Source: Fervidicoccaceae archaeon
GTDB taxonomy: Archaea; Thermoproteota; Thermoprotei_A; Sulfolobales; Fervidicoccaceae
DNA: 64,000 nucleotides
Direction: 5' to 3'
Assembly (NCBI GenBank): GCA_038734945.1
Contig: JAVYOA010000002.1
Location: 124,001-188,000 of the forward strand
Below, piece by piece: positions 35,950 to 41,665 of the stretch; the first letter of the stretch is position 1; each line of letters opens with the position of its first letter. A program made the position numbers and the translations under genes. The notes beneath the pieces are model-generated. The model was not told the origin of the DNA. It saw only the letters and a program-made list of their open reading frames with translations, and did no database searches.

Positions 35950-36726
35950 TTAGATATTGGATTCGAACTCATTCATCTCTGAGATGATCCCCTGTATTCT
36001 CCCGAAGAGCTCCTCCAGCCCCTCTTCGCTTGTGCTTGAAACTGGAACAAAGTCGAATCCCACATCAAGAAGAAGATTGGCAAAGCTCTCAATTAGCTCT
36101 CTGGTTGATGCTCTTTCCAGTTCCGAAACTCTCTCAATTATTATAGTTGGATCATCTCTTAGTTCATATAGCTCATCTAGGTGCTCTCTATCCAAAGTAT
36201 CTACCTTTGTAATCGCATTTATCTGTGGAAAGCTGTGTCTGAGACTGACACTATAGGAGAGCAAAAGCATGGAGATTAAGCTATCAATCCTTGTCGCAAA
36301 AACAGCATCCACTAGAAAAACCACTACTGTCCTGTTTTTTGGGGCAATTCTCTCTATAAGCAAGTTTCCAGTTGGTCTATATGCAAAGAGCTCCATCTGA
36401 CCTGGAGTATCCAGCAGGTTATATTCACTCTCTACCCGTTCTATTTCTTTGTGCACTTCCCCTATTTTTGTGAACAAGTAATCCATGCTCACTAGAAGGG
36501 CGCCGTTCGGACCCAGTCCTCTGCTTATAGCTATATCTCGCGCATTAACAAAGGTCCTAACATCAACATCAGGGCTATACGGAATGCTCTCAATTGCTGG
36601 ATCTAGGTTTATCCTTGACACGCCTATTCCATTGAACTCTAGCCAGTCTCCCAAGGATTGAGTTAGTGTTGTTTTTCCTGAACCAGCAGGTCCTATGAAG
36701 ACTATATACTTACCTCTTCCCTCCAC
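35950..36726 (-). CDS. GPN-loop GTPase
   Basis: A 258-residue GTPase of the GPN family (XAB1/Npa3-like). It has the P-loop GPAGSGKTT at the N-terminus, the defining Gly-Pro-Asn loop in GLGPNGALL near residue 73, and LLDTPGQMELFAY (G3). Eukaryotic members assist RNA polymerase II assembly; the archaeal role is unsettled. The GTG at 36726 overlaps amrS by 17 bases and is preceded by GAGGAG. Confidence 0.93.
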   Translation of the reverse strand: MEGRGKYIVFIGPAGSGKTTLTQSLGDWLEFNGIGVSRINLDPAIESIPYSPDVDVRTFVNARDIAISRGLGPNGALLVSMDYLFTKIGEVHKEIERVESEYNLLDTPGQMELFAYRPTGNLLIERIAPKNRTVVVFLVDAVFATRIDSLISMLLLSYSVSLRHSFPQINAITKVDTLDREHLDELYELRDDPTIIIERVSELERASTRELIESFANLLLDVGFDFVPVSSTSEEGLEELFGRIQGIISEMNEFESNI

Positions 36727-37768
36727 TTCTCCTCACCACCACGTTCAATTTATATCCGCAATATGGACATCTTCCCTCTTCATCCAGAACATTTCTTTTG
36801 ACAAAGAAGCCCTCCCTCTCTATAACAACATTTCCACATTTAGGACACCGAGTGCTCTCTAGTGGATGTCCCCATACATTACCTATATAAACATGCTTGA
36901 GGCCAGCATTTCTTGCTTCAACAGAAAGCTCTTCGAGCTTTTCAATCTCCGTAGGGGGTAGCGAAGTTAGTTTATAGCTGGGATAAAATCTGAGAAGATG
37001 GAACGGAACCTCCTCGCTTAGCTCTGAGGCTATCCAGCTCGCAAGCTTTCCCAAATCACCCTTGTTATCCCCAATTCTTGGGACTATCAAGTTTGTTATC
37101 TCTATGAAGATGCGCTTTTCCTTCAGTATCTTGAGGAATTCATAGATAGGTGATGGATCGGGAACGCTCATATATTTTCTATAAAAATCAGGATTTCCGC
37201 TGGCCTTGAAATCGACCGTGGCTGCATTTAAATATGGATAGAACTCCTCTATGGCTTCTGGGCTCATGTACCCATTTGTTACTATGGTGGTAAAAAGACC
37301 CTCTTTTACTGCTAATTTTGCTACATCGTACATATACTCATAGAAAATTGTAGGTTCATTGTATGTGAAGGATATACCGTCGGCCTTGTACCTTTTAGCA
37401 ATCTCCACAATTTCTTCAGGTTCTCTGAACTCACCATATAGCCCTCTCTCCAATCTCGATTGACTGATTTCCCAATTTTGACAGAACGAACAGAAAAAGT
37501 TACAGCCTACTGTTGATATGGATAGTACCCTTGAGGAGGGCATGTAGTGCATCAGAGGCTTTTTCTCTATGGGATCCATTGCTATTGCTGTGAGGAGCCC
37601 ATAAACATATGTATAGAGAGTGCCTCCCTCGTTCTTTCTAACTCCACATACTCCAAATTTTCCTGGAGCTATTATGCAGTATCTGCTGCACAAATTGCAT
37701 TTGACATATCCCTTTGAATTGTATCGGATCCAATGCTCTGCTACTCTCTTGTTCTTGCTTATTGCCAT
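36710..37768 (-). CDS. amrS: AmmeMemoRadiSam system radical SAM enzyme
   Basis: A 352-residue enzyme with the radical SAM motif CNFFCSFC (cysteines 89, 93 and 96). The N-terminus carries the family-specific cysteines in CNLCSRYC...GVCGVR (24, 27, 31, 41), and the C-terminus a zinc-ribbon-like pair of CxxC (308, 311, 334, 337). The EKKPLMHYMP stretch is typical of AmrS. Partners MEMO and AMMECR1 are not in this window. The reaction is unknown in archaea. It overlaps the GPN GTPase downstream and a degenerate paralogue upstream, so all are one operon. Confidence 0.93.
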   Translation of the reverse strand: MAISKNKRVAEHWIRYNSKGYVKCNLCSRYCIIAPGKFGVCGVRKNEGGTLYTYVYGLLTAIAMDPIEKKPLMHYMPSSRVLSISTVGCNFFCSFCQNWEISQSRLERGLYGEFREPEEIVEIAKRYKADGISFTYNEPTIFYEYMYDVAKLAVKEGLFTTIVTNGYMSPEAIEEFYPYLNAATVDFKASGNPDFYRKYMSVPDPSPIYEFLKILKEKRIFIEITNLIVPRIGDNKGDLGKLASWIASELSEEVPFHLLRFYPSYKLTSLPPTEIEKLEELSVEARNAGLKHVYIGNVWGHPLESTRCPKCGNVVIEREGFFVKRNVLDEEGRCPYCGYKLNVVVRRSGGKR

Positions 37769-38589
37769 TCTTGCTCCTCCCTCCTCAATAGTTCAATTCC
37801 TTTCATCAGAAGATTTTTATTGACCCATTTTTTATCAGGCTCTCTGAGGAAAACCTTCTTTTGGCATCTTGGACATTTTGTAGAATCAGAAAATTGACTC
37901 ACTGAAGAAAAGAAATTTTTGAATGAAATTAAGGGAAATCCACAGCTTAGGCATCTAGTTGAGGCAGAATCGGAGGAACCAAACCAAAAATCGTGGATAT
38001 AGATGTTTAGATTTTTTGAACTTATGAAGCTGCTAACACCAATTGGTTTTAGAACAAAAATGTGTATTGGAATGCTAGAAATGTTAAGATAGAGTTTCAA
38101 AGTGTTTGTTAGCTCTTCTCTGCTGTTAACTCCAATATGCACTTCGATCATTGGTAAATCCTCCAAGGTCCTGCCCTTAAAGTGCGATAAGAAAGAGGCA
38201 TTCCTTTCAGCTTCTCCTTTTAAATATAGAACAAAGTACTCAACATAGTTTTCAACAAAGCTGAAATCATTCAATGAAGCTGGTGCTGCTATGCCAAGAT
38301 CTATGGATTTCTCTTCGGCTATCCCCCTCATAAAAGAAAGCTCCTCTTCTGTGGGATGGGAGCATTCTATTAGATGAAGCATGGAAGGTGAGTATTTGTC
38401 TATGAATTCTTCCAAGGAGTGCACATTGAATTCTATTTCTTTCAAACTTCCCAAGATGTACCATGGAGGGACCTCCGACTGTAAACAGGATGCTGAGAAC
38501 AGTACTAAGATTTTCCTAAAAGCTGAATAGTGAAACATATATAATCTTTCATTGAGAGTGAGAAATGCCCCACTAAATAGCATTTTCAT
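37759..38589 (-). CDS. Degenerate AmrS paralogue lacking the radical SAM cysteines
   Basis: A 276-residue protein without a recognised family name. Its C-terminus copies that of AmrS: STRC and CP.C with the second pair 23 residues after the first (cysteines 213, 216, 239 and 242), the same 23-residue spacing as in AmrS (311 to 334), and IHDFWFGSSDSASTRC aligns with YIGNVWGHPLESTRC. The middle part can be aligned weakly. No CxxxCxxC is present; only one cysteine (35) remains near the expected position, so no radical SAM cluster can form. It may be a structural partner or regulator of AmrS. It overlaps amrS by 10 bases and DUF504 by one base. The ATG at 38589 or a Met three codons later may start it. 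Confidence 0.65.
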   Translation of the reverse strand: MKMLFSGAFLTLNERLYMFHYSAFRKILVLFSASCLQSEVPPWYILGSLKEIEFNVHSLEEFIDKYSPSMLHLIECSHPTEEELSFMRGIAEEKSIDLGIAAPASLNDFSFVENYVEYFVLYLKGEAERNASFLSHFKGRTLEDLPMIEVHIGVNSREELTNTLKLYLNISSIPIHIFVLKPIGVSSFISSKNLNIYIHDFWFGSSDSASTRCLSCGFPLISFKNFFSSVSQFSDSTKCPRCQKKVFLREPDKKWVNKNLLMKGIELLRREEQEWQ

Positions 38590-38843
38590 CACTGCTCTTC
38601 AGCAGTTTTTCTATCTATAATTACTCTATTACCAATTTCAATTTTGATTATTCGATGAATTGGAATTACTGAGCCTTCCTTCAGAATTATCTGGTCAAAT
38701 TGGGTTATTTCATCTATCTGATCCCCCGTTATAACTCTGGTTCCCCCCTCCACAAGCCTATCCCTAATGAATATCTTGTATTTCTCCTTAAACGTAGAGC
38801 CGCGAATTTCCTTGAGAACTCCCAAAATAGTCCTTCTAGTCAT
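38589..38843 (-). CDS. DUF504 / UPF0248 family protein
   Basis: An 84-residue protein with the DUF504 layout: RRTILGVLKEIRG at the start, GTRVITGDQIDEI in the middle and VIPIHRIIKIEIGNRVI near the end. Related archaeal proteins are small, basic and often near RNA-processing genes; a role is unproven. The ATG at 38843 gives the usual length; a longer frame to 38885 would run through a strong hairpin. First gene of the amrS-GPN operon. Confidence 0.8.
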   Translation of the reverse strand: MTRRTILGVLKEIRGSTFKEKYKIFIRDRLVEGGTRVITGDQIDEITQFDQIILKEGSVIPIHRIIKIEIGNRVIIDRKTAEEQ

Positions 38844-38857
38844 AAGAAGATTCCTCT

Positions 38858-38875
38858 CCCCGCTGTTCAGCGGGG
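38858..38875. repeat. Perfect inverted repeat in the leader of the DUF504 gene
   Basis: CCCCGCTG and CAGCGGGG separated by two bases form an 18-base perfect palindrome, 15-32 bases upstream of the DUF504 ATG. On the transcript it would fold into a stable GC-rich hairpin whose 3' arm abuts the GGAGAGGA that may serve as ribosome binding site. It stands out in an AT-rich region. It could be a regulatory hairpin, a protein operator or a remnant of a small mobile element; nothing else of an element is present. Confidence 0.55.
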
Positions 38876-39145
38876 AAATATGCATTATTTGTTTCTCATT
38901 ACTTCCTAATAAGCTGTTTCTTCTATCTCGTAGCTGTTCTTTTTCTTTGAAAATGGAGGAGTTTCTGAGAAGTTTAGAGCTGCATTCCAGGCTGGAGCTT
39001 GTTTAAGCTATGAGCACGTCTTGAAAGCTTTGCTCCCTCTTTATACAGCATATAGTTCTGGGATATGCTAATTTCCATAGCTCCTACGCGCTATCTCTTT
39101 AATAAAGAGGGGTGTTTTTTAAAGTGCCAACTAAATTCAGAGTGC
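38876..39145. other. Non-coding gap between the unknown gene and the amrS operon
   Basis: With the hairpin this gap is about 300 bases. I find no convincing gene, tRNA or C/D box RNA on either strand. It holds a short palindrome CTCTTTAATAAAGAG at 39095-39109, 37 bases after the stop of the minus-strand gene at 39146, followed on that strand by A/T-rich sequence, which could mark transcript termination. The half nearest DUF504 presumably carries the promoter of the four-gene operon, but no TATA box stands out. Confidence 0.5.
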
Positions 39146-40513
39146 TCACCCCAAGAAGTATATATTGCTGTGGCTTCCTCTCCTTTTCTGAAGCAAATTT
39201 TTCAAGTGAAGCGTGTTGAGCAGATTTTCAGCTAAGCCTTCACCGAGAATGCTTGAGATGTCTCCCGCTTCAATGCAGCCATTGAGTCTCAGAGAAATGC
39301 TGATCTTTTCTGAAACAATCTTGGAAAGCTCTCCTTTGAGAAGCGGAAAGAAGCTCCTGATATATCCATCTATGACTGAAGCACTAACTTCCGCTGGGCG
39401 ACAAATTGAATATATTCTATCGTTCTCTACATATCTCGATAGAAGCCTGAGTTTTTGAGGTAATGAATCCAGAGATATTATGATTCTAGTTTTTCTCTGA
39501 GATGGATTGCTCTGAATCATTTCTCTTAGTTCCTCCAACATTGCTCTCGAAAAGGCTCTGAGTCTGTAGTTCTGTACTTCATTGGTCAGCGCTTCTGCCT
39601 CCTCAATGTTTGCTGAAGCTATTACAGCGTCATTTTTCCAACTCGAAAAGGTTGCATGCTCCTTTAGGGCAAAGGAAAGGCTGTATGTCAAGGAAGTCAT
39701 GTACTTCAGTATGAATAGAGAGACGAAGCGATCGAGCGGAAATATTCTTCCTGTTCCTATCTTCTTGAGCTCCTTTTCTGCAGCATCTAGATAGCTTAAT
39801 ATGCCTCCGAAGGGCTTTTCTCTGCTTCGTCTATGAATTGTTCGCAGAGGGCAAACAATTCCCCTATTAAATGGACACCTGGAGCTTCCCATGTATCTCG
39901 GGCATTCTAGCTTCTCTCCCTTAAAGATGCATGTTGGACCGAATTTAGGAACCAATTCGACCGAATATGTGAGCTTCCTATATGCCTTGATTATATGAAA
40001 TGAATATGCTGCTGTGAAGGGTATCAGTGAGGAGATTTCTTCGTAGGGAAGAAGAAAGCTCCCATTGTTCTTTATTCCATGAATCTTAGATACAATAACA
40101 GTATCTTCTTTCACAAGAACTCCTAGATGAACACCTCCTTCCAAAGAAACAAGATCTATTTTCTTCCCAATATCTTCACCTAGCTTTTGAAATACTTCTT
40201 TGGAACTAAGGGATTCTTGGAGGAGGAGGTATCCTTTCTTAGCTGCTGCAGGCTCCAAATTACTTCCGAAAATTTCCGAAAGGAGAAAAGAAAATTTTTC
40301 AGGACTTGAATAAACTATTTTTCTGTTTTTTCCCCCAACAAGAGTGAAGCCCTTGGAGCATTTTCCCTGATCCAGGCAATCTGCTATCCTGCGCAAATAT
40401 CTTGAGAGGCTGAGCTCAGGCAATATATTCTCATTGAAGCCCCCGCATATCCTCAGATAGCCTATCTCTCTGCATTCCTCTCCATCTATATCTTCAGCTG
40501 ACAAGTGACTCAA
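39146..40513 (-). CDS. Unknown protein with a four-cysteine cluster
   Basis: A 455-residue protein I do not recognise. The centre has four cysteines, C195, C204, C213 and C221 (spacings x8, x8, x7), in a basic, proline-containing context (CPRYMGSSRCPF), which could bind zinc or an iron-sulfur cluster. The N-terminal 180 residues look like a mixed alpha/beta domain, the rest is mostly helical with many serines and basic residues; no membrane segment or Walker motif. Other cysteines (14, 23, 46, 52) are scattered in the N-terminal part. It starts at a TTG at 40513 without a clear site and diverges from the lipoate ligase genes by about 100 bases. It is a single gene with normal codon use. Confidence 0.6.
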   Translation of the reverse strand: MSHLSAEDIDGEECREIGYLRICGGFNENILPELSLSRYLRRIADCLDQGKCSKGFTLVGGKNRKIVYSSPEKFSFLLSEIFGSNLEPAAAKKGYLLLQESLSSKEVFQKLGEDIGKKIDLVSLEGGVHLGVLVKEDTVIVSKIHGIKNNGSFLLPYEEISSLIPFTAAYSFHIIKAYRKLTYSVELVPKFGPTCIFKGEKLECPRYMGSSRCPFNRGIVCPLRTIHRRSREKPFGGILSYLDAAEKELKKIGTGRIFPLDRFVSLFILKYMTSLTYSLSFALKEHATFSSWKNDAVIASANIEEAEALTNEVQNYRLRAFSRAMLEELREMIQSNPSQRKTRIIISLDSLPQKLRLLSRYVENDRIYSICRPAEVSASVIDGYIRSFFPLLKGELSKIVSEKISISLRLNGCIEAGDISSILGEGLAENLLNTLHLKNLLQKRRGSHSNIYFLG

Positions 40514-40610: not shown

Positions 40611-40895
40611 TTGAAAATACTAAGAGGAGAAAAGAAGCTGAAGAAAGGTCTGGTAAGGGTGAAAATGGAGATTGATGATAATGGAAGAATTGAGAGTATT
40701 ACCATAACAGGGGATTTCTTCATGATTCCCGAGGATTCTCTATGGAAGCTGGAAGAAGAGCTGATTGGAGCAAAGCTTGAAAGAGAGGAGATTTTGAAAA
40801 TTATTAAAAAAGTATTCGAGGAAACAAGAGCAACACTTGTTGGCTCTTCACCAGAGGAACTTACTGAAGCTATCTTGGAGGTTGAGGAAATTTGA
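40611..40895 (+). CDS. lplB: Lipoate-protein ligase accessory subunit (C-terminal domain, LplB type)
   Basis: A 94-residue protein matching the C-terminal domain of bacterial LplA, which in archaea such as Thermoplasma is a separate subunit. It begins KILRGEKKLKKGLVRVKMEIDDNGRIESI (given by its ends), with the GDFFMIPEDSLWKLEEELIG region typical of this domain. Needed for the adenylation step of lipoate attachment. The TTG at 40611 follows GGGTG at six bases, and it overlaps lplA by four bases. Confidence 0.87.
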   Translation: MKILRGEKKLKKGLVRVKMEIDDNGRIESITITGDFFMIPEDSLWKLEEELIGAKLEREEILKIIKKVFEETRATLVGSSPEELTEAILEVEEI

Positions 40896-41665
40896 GCGGT
40901 GAGCTTAGAGTAGTTCTCACAGAATACCCGGAAAATTCCTATATGAACATGTCCTATGAGGAGGCCTTCTTTCTGAGCAGATGCAATGATTGGTCCAATG
41001 ATATTCTAAGGATATGGAGAAATGAGAATGCTGTAGTTATTGGAATCTTTCAGAGGGCAGATGAAGAGGTGGATCTGGATTTTGCCAGAGAAAAAAACAT
41101 TCAGGTTGTCAGGAGATTCACAGGTGGAGGAGCTGTGTATCATGATCTGGGAAATATCAACTTTGCTCTCTCCACGAAGATCCCTTCCAGCATGCCAAGA
41201 GGGGTTGACTTTCTCTATGAAAATCTAATAAATGGAGCGCTGGAAGCCTTAAGGCGTTTAGGATTCTCGCCAGCAAAGGAAAACATCAATGATATTGTGA
41301 TAGAGGGAAAAAAGGTGATCGGGGTAGCTGGAAGCCTGAGAGGAGATTGTGCGTTTCTGCATGGAGCTATGCTCTTCTCAACAAACCTGAGCACTCTTTC
41401 GAGAGTTCTAAAGGTTCCCCTAAAAAAACTCCAGGATAAAAAGATTGAATCTGTGAAGTACAGAGTATCAACAATTTCTCATTTGAAGCCGGAGCTTAGG
41501 TCAAAAGATGTGATCTCTGCTCTTATAGATGGATTTTCTGAGACCCTCGATTCTAGAGGTTATTATTTTGACATGCCCTTTGAAAAGGAGATAGAGTTGG
41601 CCAGAAAGCTCTATGCAGAGAAATACTCGACAAGCGCTTGGAACATGGAAAGAAGAAGGCCTTAA
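40892..41665 (+). CDS. lplA: Lipoate-protein ligase A, catalytic subunit
   Basis: A 257-residue BPL/LplA-fold enzyme. Motifs are AVVIGIFQRADEEVD, the RRFTGGGAVYHDLGNINFAL loop (about residues 71-90), and DIVIEGKKVIGVAGSLRG with the catalytic-type lysine. It attaches lipoate to proteins such as glycine cleavage H or 2-oxoacid dehydrogenase E2; none is encoded in this window. It starts at a TTG inside the last codons of lplB, with GAGG upstream, so the two subunits are coupled. Confidence 0.92.
   Translation: MSGELRVVLTEYPENSYMNMSYEEAFFLSRCNDWSNDILRIWRNENAVVIGIFQRADEEVDLDFAREKNIQVVRRFTGGGAVYHDLGNINFALSTKIPSSMPRGVDFLYENLINGALEALRRLGFSPAKENINDIVIEGKKVIGVAGSLRGDCAFLHGAMLFSTNLSTLSRVLKVPLKKLQDKKIESVKYRVSTISHLKPELRSKDVISALIDGFSETLDSRGYYFDMPFEKEIELARKLYAEKYSTSAWNMERRRP

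Follow-up and report, generated by a model that had tools for sequence, protein, structure and literature searches.

A predicted catalytically dead paralogue of the radical SAM enzyme AmrS, encoded directly upstream of amrS in a Fervidicoccaceae archaeon

The window analysed here is a stretch of 64,000 nucleotides from a Fervidicoccaceae archaeon. It carries the gene for AmrS, the radical SAM enzyme of the AmmeMemoRadiSam system. AmrS is widespread among archaea and bacteria and accompanies Memo and AMMECR1, both of which are also encoded in the window's genome. No paper establishing the function of AmrS was found in the open-licence literature. Directly upstream of amrS lies a second gene, called pseudo-AmrS here, or A2 when its relatives in other genomes are meant as well. 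The genes and sites concerned are:

35950..36726 (-): GPN-loop GTPase (PF03029), downstream of amrS and belonging to the conserved neighbourhood
36710..37768 (-): amrS, 352 aa, AmmeMemoRadiSam system radical SAM enzyme (TIGR04337, E 1.1e-94)
37481..37504 (-): intact catalytic CxxxCxxC (CNFFCSFC) of AmrS, the comparison site
37759..37785 (-): overlap of pseudo-AmrS and amrS, with the GGAGGGAGGAG stretch inside pseudo-AmrS directly before the amrS start, a putative ribosome-binding site
37759..38589 (-): pseudo-AmrS (A2), 276 aa, full-length AmrS paralogue, predicted to be catalytically dead
37864..37953 (-): C-terminal zinc ribbon of pseudo-AmrS, C214, C217, C240 and C243 (277-aa numbering)
38461..38487 (-): remains of the [4Fe-4S]/SAM site, C-L-Q-S-E-V-P-P-W where AmrS has C-N-F-F-C-S-F-C-Q-N-W
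38589..38885 (-): 98-aa protein resembling the MJ1316 domain (PF04457, slightly below the cut-off), overlapping the start of pseudo-AmrS

The reading frame of pseudo-AmrS is open and, as the initial annotation had reported, overlaps amrS by 10 bases. Its start is likely the ATG at 38589, within a TGATG overlap with the upstream gene, which gives 276 aa; the longest-ORF call begins with a GTG at 38592 and gives 277 aa, and this frame is the basis of the numbering of the ribbon cysteines. The neighbouring AmrS scores 317 bits against a TIGR04337 cut-off of 220, and its CxxxCxxC is intact. The gene for the MJ1316-like 98-aa protein also adjoins A2 in genome G001. At 39146-40513 (minus strand) there is a gene for a 455-aa protein with a Cys-rich middle (CIFKGEKLEC...CPFNRGIVCPLRTIHR) and a winged-helix-like end, for which a Pfam search gave no match; a counterpart adjoins pseudo-AmrS in G001 too (L003 46-1176). 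At 40611-41665 (plus strand) a lipoate-protein ligase is encoded as two overlapping genes, the C-terminal domain (PF10437) followed by the catalytic domain (PF21948). A lipoyl ligase adjoins pseudo-AmrS in G043 and G033 (L042, L048), probably by coincidence.

The last ~65 residues of pseudo-AmrS contain STRC..CG and two CxxC pairs in the same register as in AmrS, and in BLASTP the C-termini align over 52 aa at 31%, with E 2e-6 as a single comparison. When the AmrS zinc-ribbon profile is run against the ORFs of the window, pseudo-AmrS ranks second after AmrS with E 1.4e-5, while the best of 5000 shuffled pseudo-AmrS proteins reaches E 3.3, which bears out the earlier claim that the protein ends in the zinc ribbon of AmrS. 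The CxxxCxxC had been described as missing, and both the alignment and a motif table agree, the aligned positions reading C, S and P. At least two of the three ligand cysteines are gone, and the register of the single remaining one is uncertain. The N-terminal four-cysteine segment is absent as well, and the GGE-like segment reads IECSHP. Since the cluster ligands are missing, pseudo-AmrS is predicted neither to bind a [4Fe-4S] cluster nor to cleave SAM.

Searches with the window protein in Pfam, NCBIfam and the PDB sequences placed it in no family, TIGR04337 did not match it up to E 10, and a scan of genome contigs with this protein alone as query gave no match. An intact relative from family f4 reaches 66 bits against TIGR04337 (cut-off 220). 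A profile of the whole A2 family matches AmrS at 99.8% (E 9e-29), a value that is not relied on alone because it includes the zinc ribbon and the members close to AmrS. The barrel was therefore compared with the ribbon removed and each clade taken separately, the window clade consisting of three sequences. In the direct comparison with AmrS, the barrel-only profile of the window clade gives a probability of 0.1, no better than shuffled columns. Each of the other A2 clades individually reaches 95-99.6% against AmrS (shuffles ~1%), and the barrel-only profile of the other A2 as a whole reaches 99.4% (E 1.5e-21). The window clade in turn matches the other A2 at 97.5% (E 6e-12; 20 shuffles reach 0.7% at most), and a profile from which the window clade was left out recovers the window barrel at E 1.2e-9. 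Because the direct comparison failed, the barrel homology of the window lineage rests on intermediates; by way of these clades, and with support from gene order, the whole pseudo-AmrS chain is, judged from sequence, a degenerate AmrS barrel. The initial annotation had suggested a profile comparison with AmrS and had described a duplication that kept the metal site and lost the reaction centre. The comparison leads to AmrS and not to another family, only not directly for the window clade, and the paralogy holds; what does not hold is a copy of the zinc ribbon only, as ~200 other residues appear to be AmrS-derived too.

Structure prediction is consistent with this, and with the partial (beta/alpha)6 barrel of the radical SAM superfamily, at low to modest confidence. 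An AlphaFold model of A2 from four family members, with no AmrS rows, has pLDDT 60 and pTM 0.63; adding AmrS rows raises the pLDDT only to 65 and biases the fold towards AmrS. A Foldseek search with the model found no match at E 0.001. When the top 17 structures were realigned to the low-confidence model (pLDDT 60), all were radical-SAM enzymes, and unrelated barrels stayed at Z < 8; the best matches of the model (pLDDT 60-65) are QueE (Z 12.0) and PFL-activating enzyme (Z 10.5).

In an order-wide survey of 214 genomes, in which A2 and AmrS were told apart by scores and frame lengths, the matches listed place A2 in families f1 (which we take to be Fervidicoccaceae), f3 (presumably relatives of Ignisphaera), f4, f5, f6 (presumably relatives of Acidilobus, Caldisphaera and Aeropyrum), f8 and f10. 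Among the same matches, f2, f7, f9 and f11 have AmrS alone. Outside the order, A2 was not seen among the frames read from 151 genomes sampled across the phylum, where the matches look like AmrS or other AmrS-like proteins. AmrS without A2 is found in many archaea, close relatives included; one of these is G005, a 98% complete genome of the window's own family.

Looking for the same gene beside amrS in other genomes had been proposed at the outset, and of the ~75 A2 loci read, those of 34 genomes from 16 genera and five families (f1, f4, f6, f8 and f10) have A2 immediately upstream of amrS and in the same orientation. The two genes overlap in all but one of these 34 adjacent cases, an upper estimate in which the first possible start codons were used. 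In about half of the A2-bearing genomes A2 is not next to amrS. The GPN GTPase comes after A2-amrS in f1, f4 and f10, and PRPP synthetase and a THUMP methyltransferase lie divergently upstream of A2 in f3, f4, f10 and part of f6. In f3 A2 remains in the GPN/PRPP neighbourhood and amrS has been relocated; in f5 and part of f6 A2 adjoins PRPP synthetase and not amrS; in most of f8 and in the Aeropyrum-like f6 genomes A2 is located elsewhere, away from amrS. These common surroundings, which extend to f3 and f5 where amrS is missing from the spot, point to one ancestral locus at which A2 arose beside amrS. Judged by eye, the loss of CxxxCxxC does not correlate with adjacency to amrS.

In a tree from a quick search with no bootstrap, a single branch with an SH-aLRT of 100 parts A2 from all AmrS, and the A2 of each family form a single group. 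The CxxxCxxC is intact in the A2 of f3 and f4 and lost in five A2 families. The A2 of f5, f8 and f10 and most of those of f6 have the first Cys replaced and the other two retained; the N-terminal four Cys are kept in f4, f10 and most f8 A2, and a GGEP- or AEP-like stretch in f5, f8 and f10. None of the 63 family members compared lacks any of the four zinc-ribbon cysteines. The tree, whose deep branches are poorly resolved, needs no fewer than three switches between an intact and a broken site; as regain of the site is unlikely, this suggests that the reaction centre was lost at least three times. The loss postulated in the initial annotation is thus found in the window lineage, with the amendment that the duplicate appears to have been intact originally, as it still is in f3 and f4, and to have decayed stepwise. 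In f6 A2 (e.g. L029, L013 and L174) the spacing between the two remaining cluster-site cysteines is widened and varies, a hint that they serve another metal or a disulphide.

Between close pairs of relatives among the dead A2, dN/dS is 0.07-0.16 by NG86, a simple method (for example 0.12 for G012-G083, 0.11 for G035-G026 and 0.07 for G068-G066), and for this reason they are taken as genes and not as pseudogenes. They look functional, and purifying selection on proteins that have lost their catalytic residues would make them pseudoenzymes. Between the window gene and its counterpart in G001 synonymous sites are saturated. A2 evolves far faster than AmrS: between the window and G001, identity is ~35-38% for A2 and 75% for AmrS.

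A2 and AmrS (TIGR04337) have one origin in the barrel as well as in the C-terminal zinc ribbon, and they share an E...HY motif before the first strand and, in some A2 families, the N-terminal four Cys. The window protein differs from AmrS in lacking CxxxCxxC and the N-terminal Cys, is ~75 residues shorter, stands far under the TIGR04337 cut-off and is parted from AmrS by the deepest branch of the tree. A2 has no family of its own in Pfam or NCBIfam, and to our knowledge no named family exists for it; no description was found in the open-licence literature, and one may exist outside open-licence papers. Radical-SAM pseudoenzymes as a kind are not new, since TIGR04347, a pseudo-SAM/SPASM protein of haloarchaea, is already so named. 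It is like A2 by name alone, as a radical-SAM-like protein without a catalytic site; it is SPASM-type and of another lineage, and in the NCBIfam search it matched one A2 member weakly and the window protein not at all. The Dph1-Dph2 heterodimer is a radical-SAM enzyme whose two subunits are related but differ in their roles, and archaea use a Dph2 homodimer (PMC11048331). The fold and chemistry of the heterodimer are non-canonical, and both subunits have kept an iron-sulphur cluster; in the window protein the ligands for one are gone. In trypanosomatids, a dead paralogue binds and activates the live enzyme both in AdoMetDC, where it is called prozyme (PMC5201418), and in deoxyhypusine synthase (DHS) (PMC3663545). 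These enzymes are unrelated to A2, and the complexes measured there are inferred for A2.

The reading that we prefer, and to which we give an even chance, is that A2 is a tandem duplicate of amrS turned into a pseudoenzyme partner or regulator of AmrS. Its job would probably be that of a non-catalytic helper, because the reaction centre was lost stepwise while selection persisted. An ancient tandem duplication of amrS would have produced a copy that was at first an intact radical-SAM protein; this copy would then have lost its iron-sulphur ligands stepwise and repeatedly, keeping the zinc ribbon. The dead A2 would retain a partial barrel and the ribbon, be unable to cleave SAM, and serve as the second subunit of a hetero-complex with AmrS or, alternatively, as a docking or regulatory subunit bringing the substrate, or Memo and AMMECR1, to AmrS. 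Contact would be made through the zinc ribbon, which both proteins have. The AmrS origin, decay, ribbon retention, constraint and repeated linkage of A2 can be read from the sequences themselves; for the partnership the argument is operon structure, that is gene order and overlap, and it is a reasonable one because known dead paralogues activate their live relatives (PMC5201418, PMC3663545). That AmrS in several families is an obligate complex with a dead twin, whose centre was lost independently at least three times, we consider rather unlikely. AmrS occurs without A2 in f2, f7, f9 and f11 (among the matches listed) and in G005, and A2 is separated from amrS in about half of the A2-bearing genomes; both points argue against a partnership, an obligatory one included, and their linkage may partly be a relic of the tandem duplication. 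If the obligate complex were real, a homomeric radical-SAM enzyme would have turned heteromeric repeatedly, and the Memo-AMMECR1-AmrS system would have in A2 its first dedicated pseudoenzyme.

The same separation is also a point for a job of A2 independent of AmrS, for example as a small-molecule- or RNA-binding barrel with a zinc ribbon, in which case proximity in some lineages would reflect only history or shared expression. A2 is still under selection where its link to amrS is missing (f3, f5, most f8 genomes and some of f6), it evolves far faster than AmrS, and in several lineages its neighbour is PRPP synthetase. We regard this as a serious competitor, though somewhat less probable than a partnership: five anciently diverged families, one with an intact A2 and several with a dead one, have retained A2 and amrS in overlapping order, and the most conserved feature of A2 is the set of zinc-ribbon cysteines that it has in common with AmrS. 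It is improbable that A2 is instead a divergent enzyme with a new type of metal centre at the old site, built from the remaining Cys and other ligands. Two of three Cys are present in most dead A2, with altered spacing in f6, the GGEP-/AEP-like stretch persists in f5, f8 and f10, and non-canonical Cys arrangements are known in Dph1-Dph2 (PMC11048331), but the window lineage has at most one of the three Cys, none of the four N-terminal ones, and IECSHP at the GGE-like segment. A functionless, decaying pseudogene would explain the fast evolution, the lost catalytic residues and the absence from some close relatives; open frames in ~75 genomes, the dN/dS of the dead pairs and the invariant ribbon Cys have already largely refuted it, and we give it hardly any weight.

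As a partner of AmrS, A2 would offer a co-purification handle on the AmrS system. The A2 series, from intact enzyme to bare scaffold, would show which parts of AmrS matter beyond catalysis, the zinc ribbon foremost, and the family is an unusually graded natural record of the passage from radical-SAM enzyme to pseudoenzyme.

Several other AmrS-like genes were seen in the survey. In f3 (L180-L194) an A2 with intact CxxxCxxC sits between PRPP synthetase and the GPN GTPase, with no amrS on the spot; going by its motif, it is a second AmrS-like enzyme, possibly an active one. Genome G099 (L145, L189) has two A2 members, one beside amrS and the other near amrS on the opposite strand; the second copy belongs to a long-branched clade, and the bin may be mixed. 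Genomes of f2, f3 and f5 (L036 2334-3395, L039 2081-3163 and L043 1304-2332) contain a second AmrS-like subfamily, which has sites of the GYGCNFYCPWCQN type and is separated from AmrS by a deep split on the tree.
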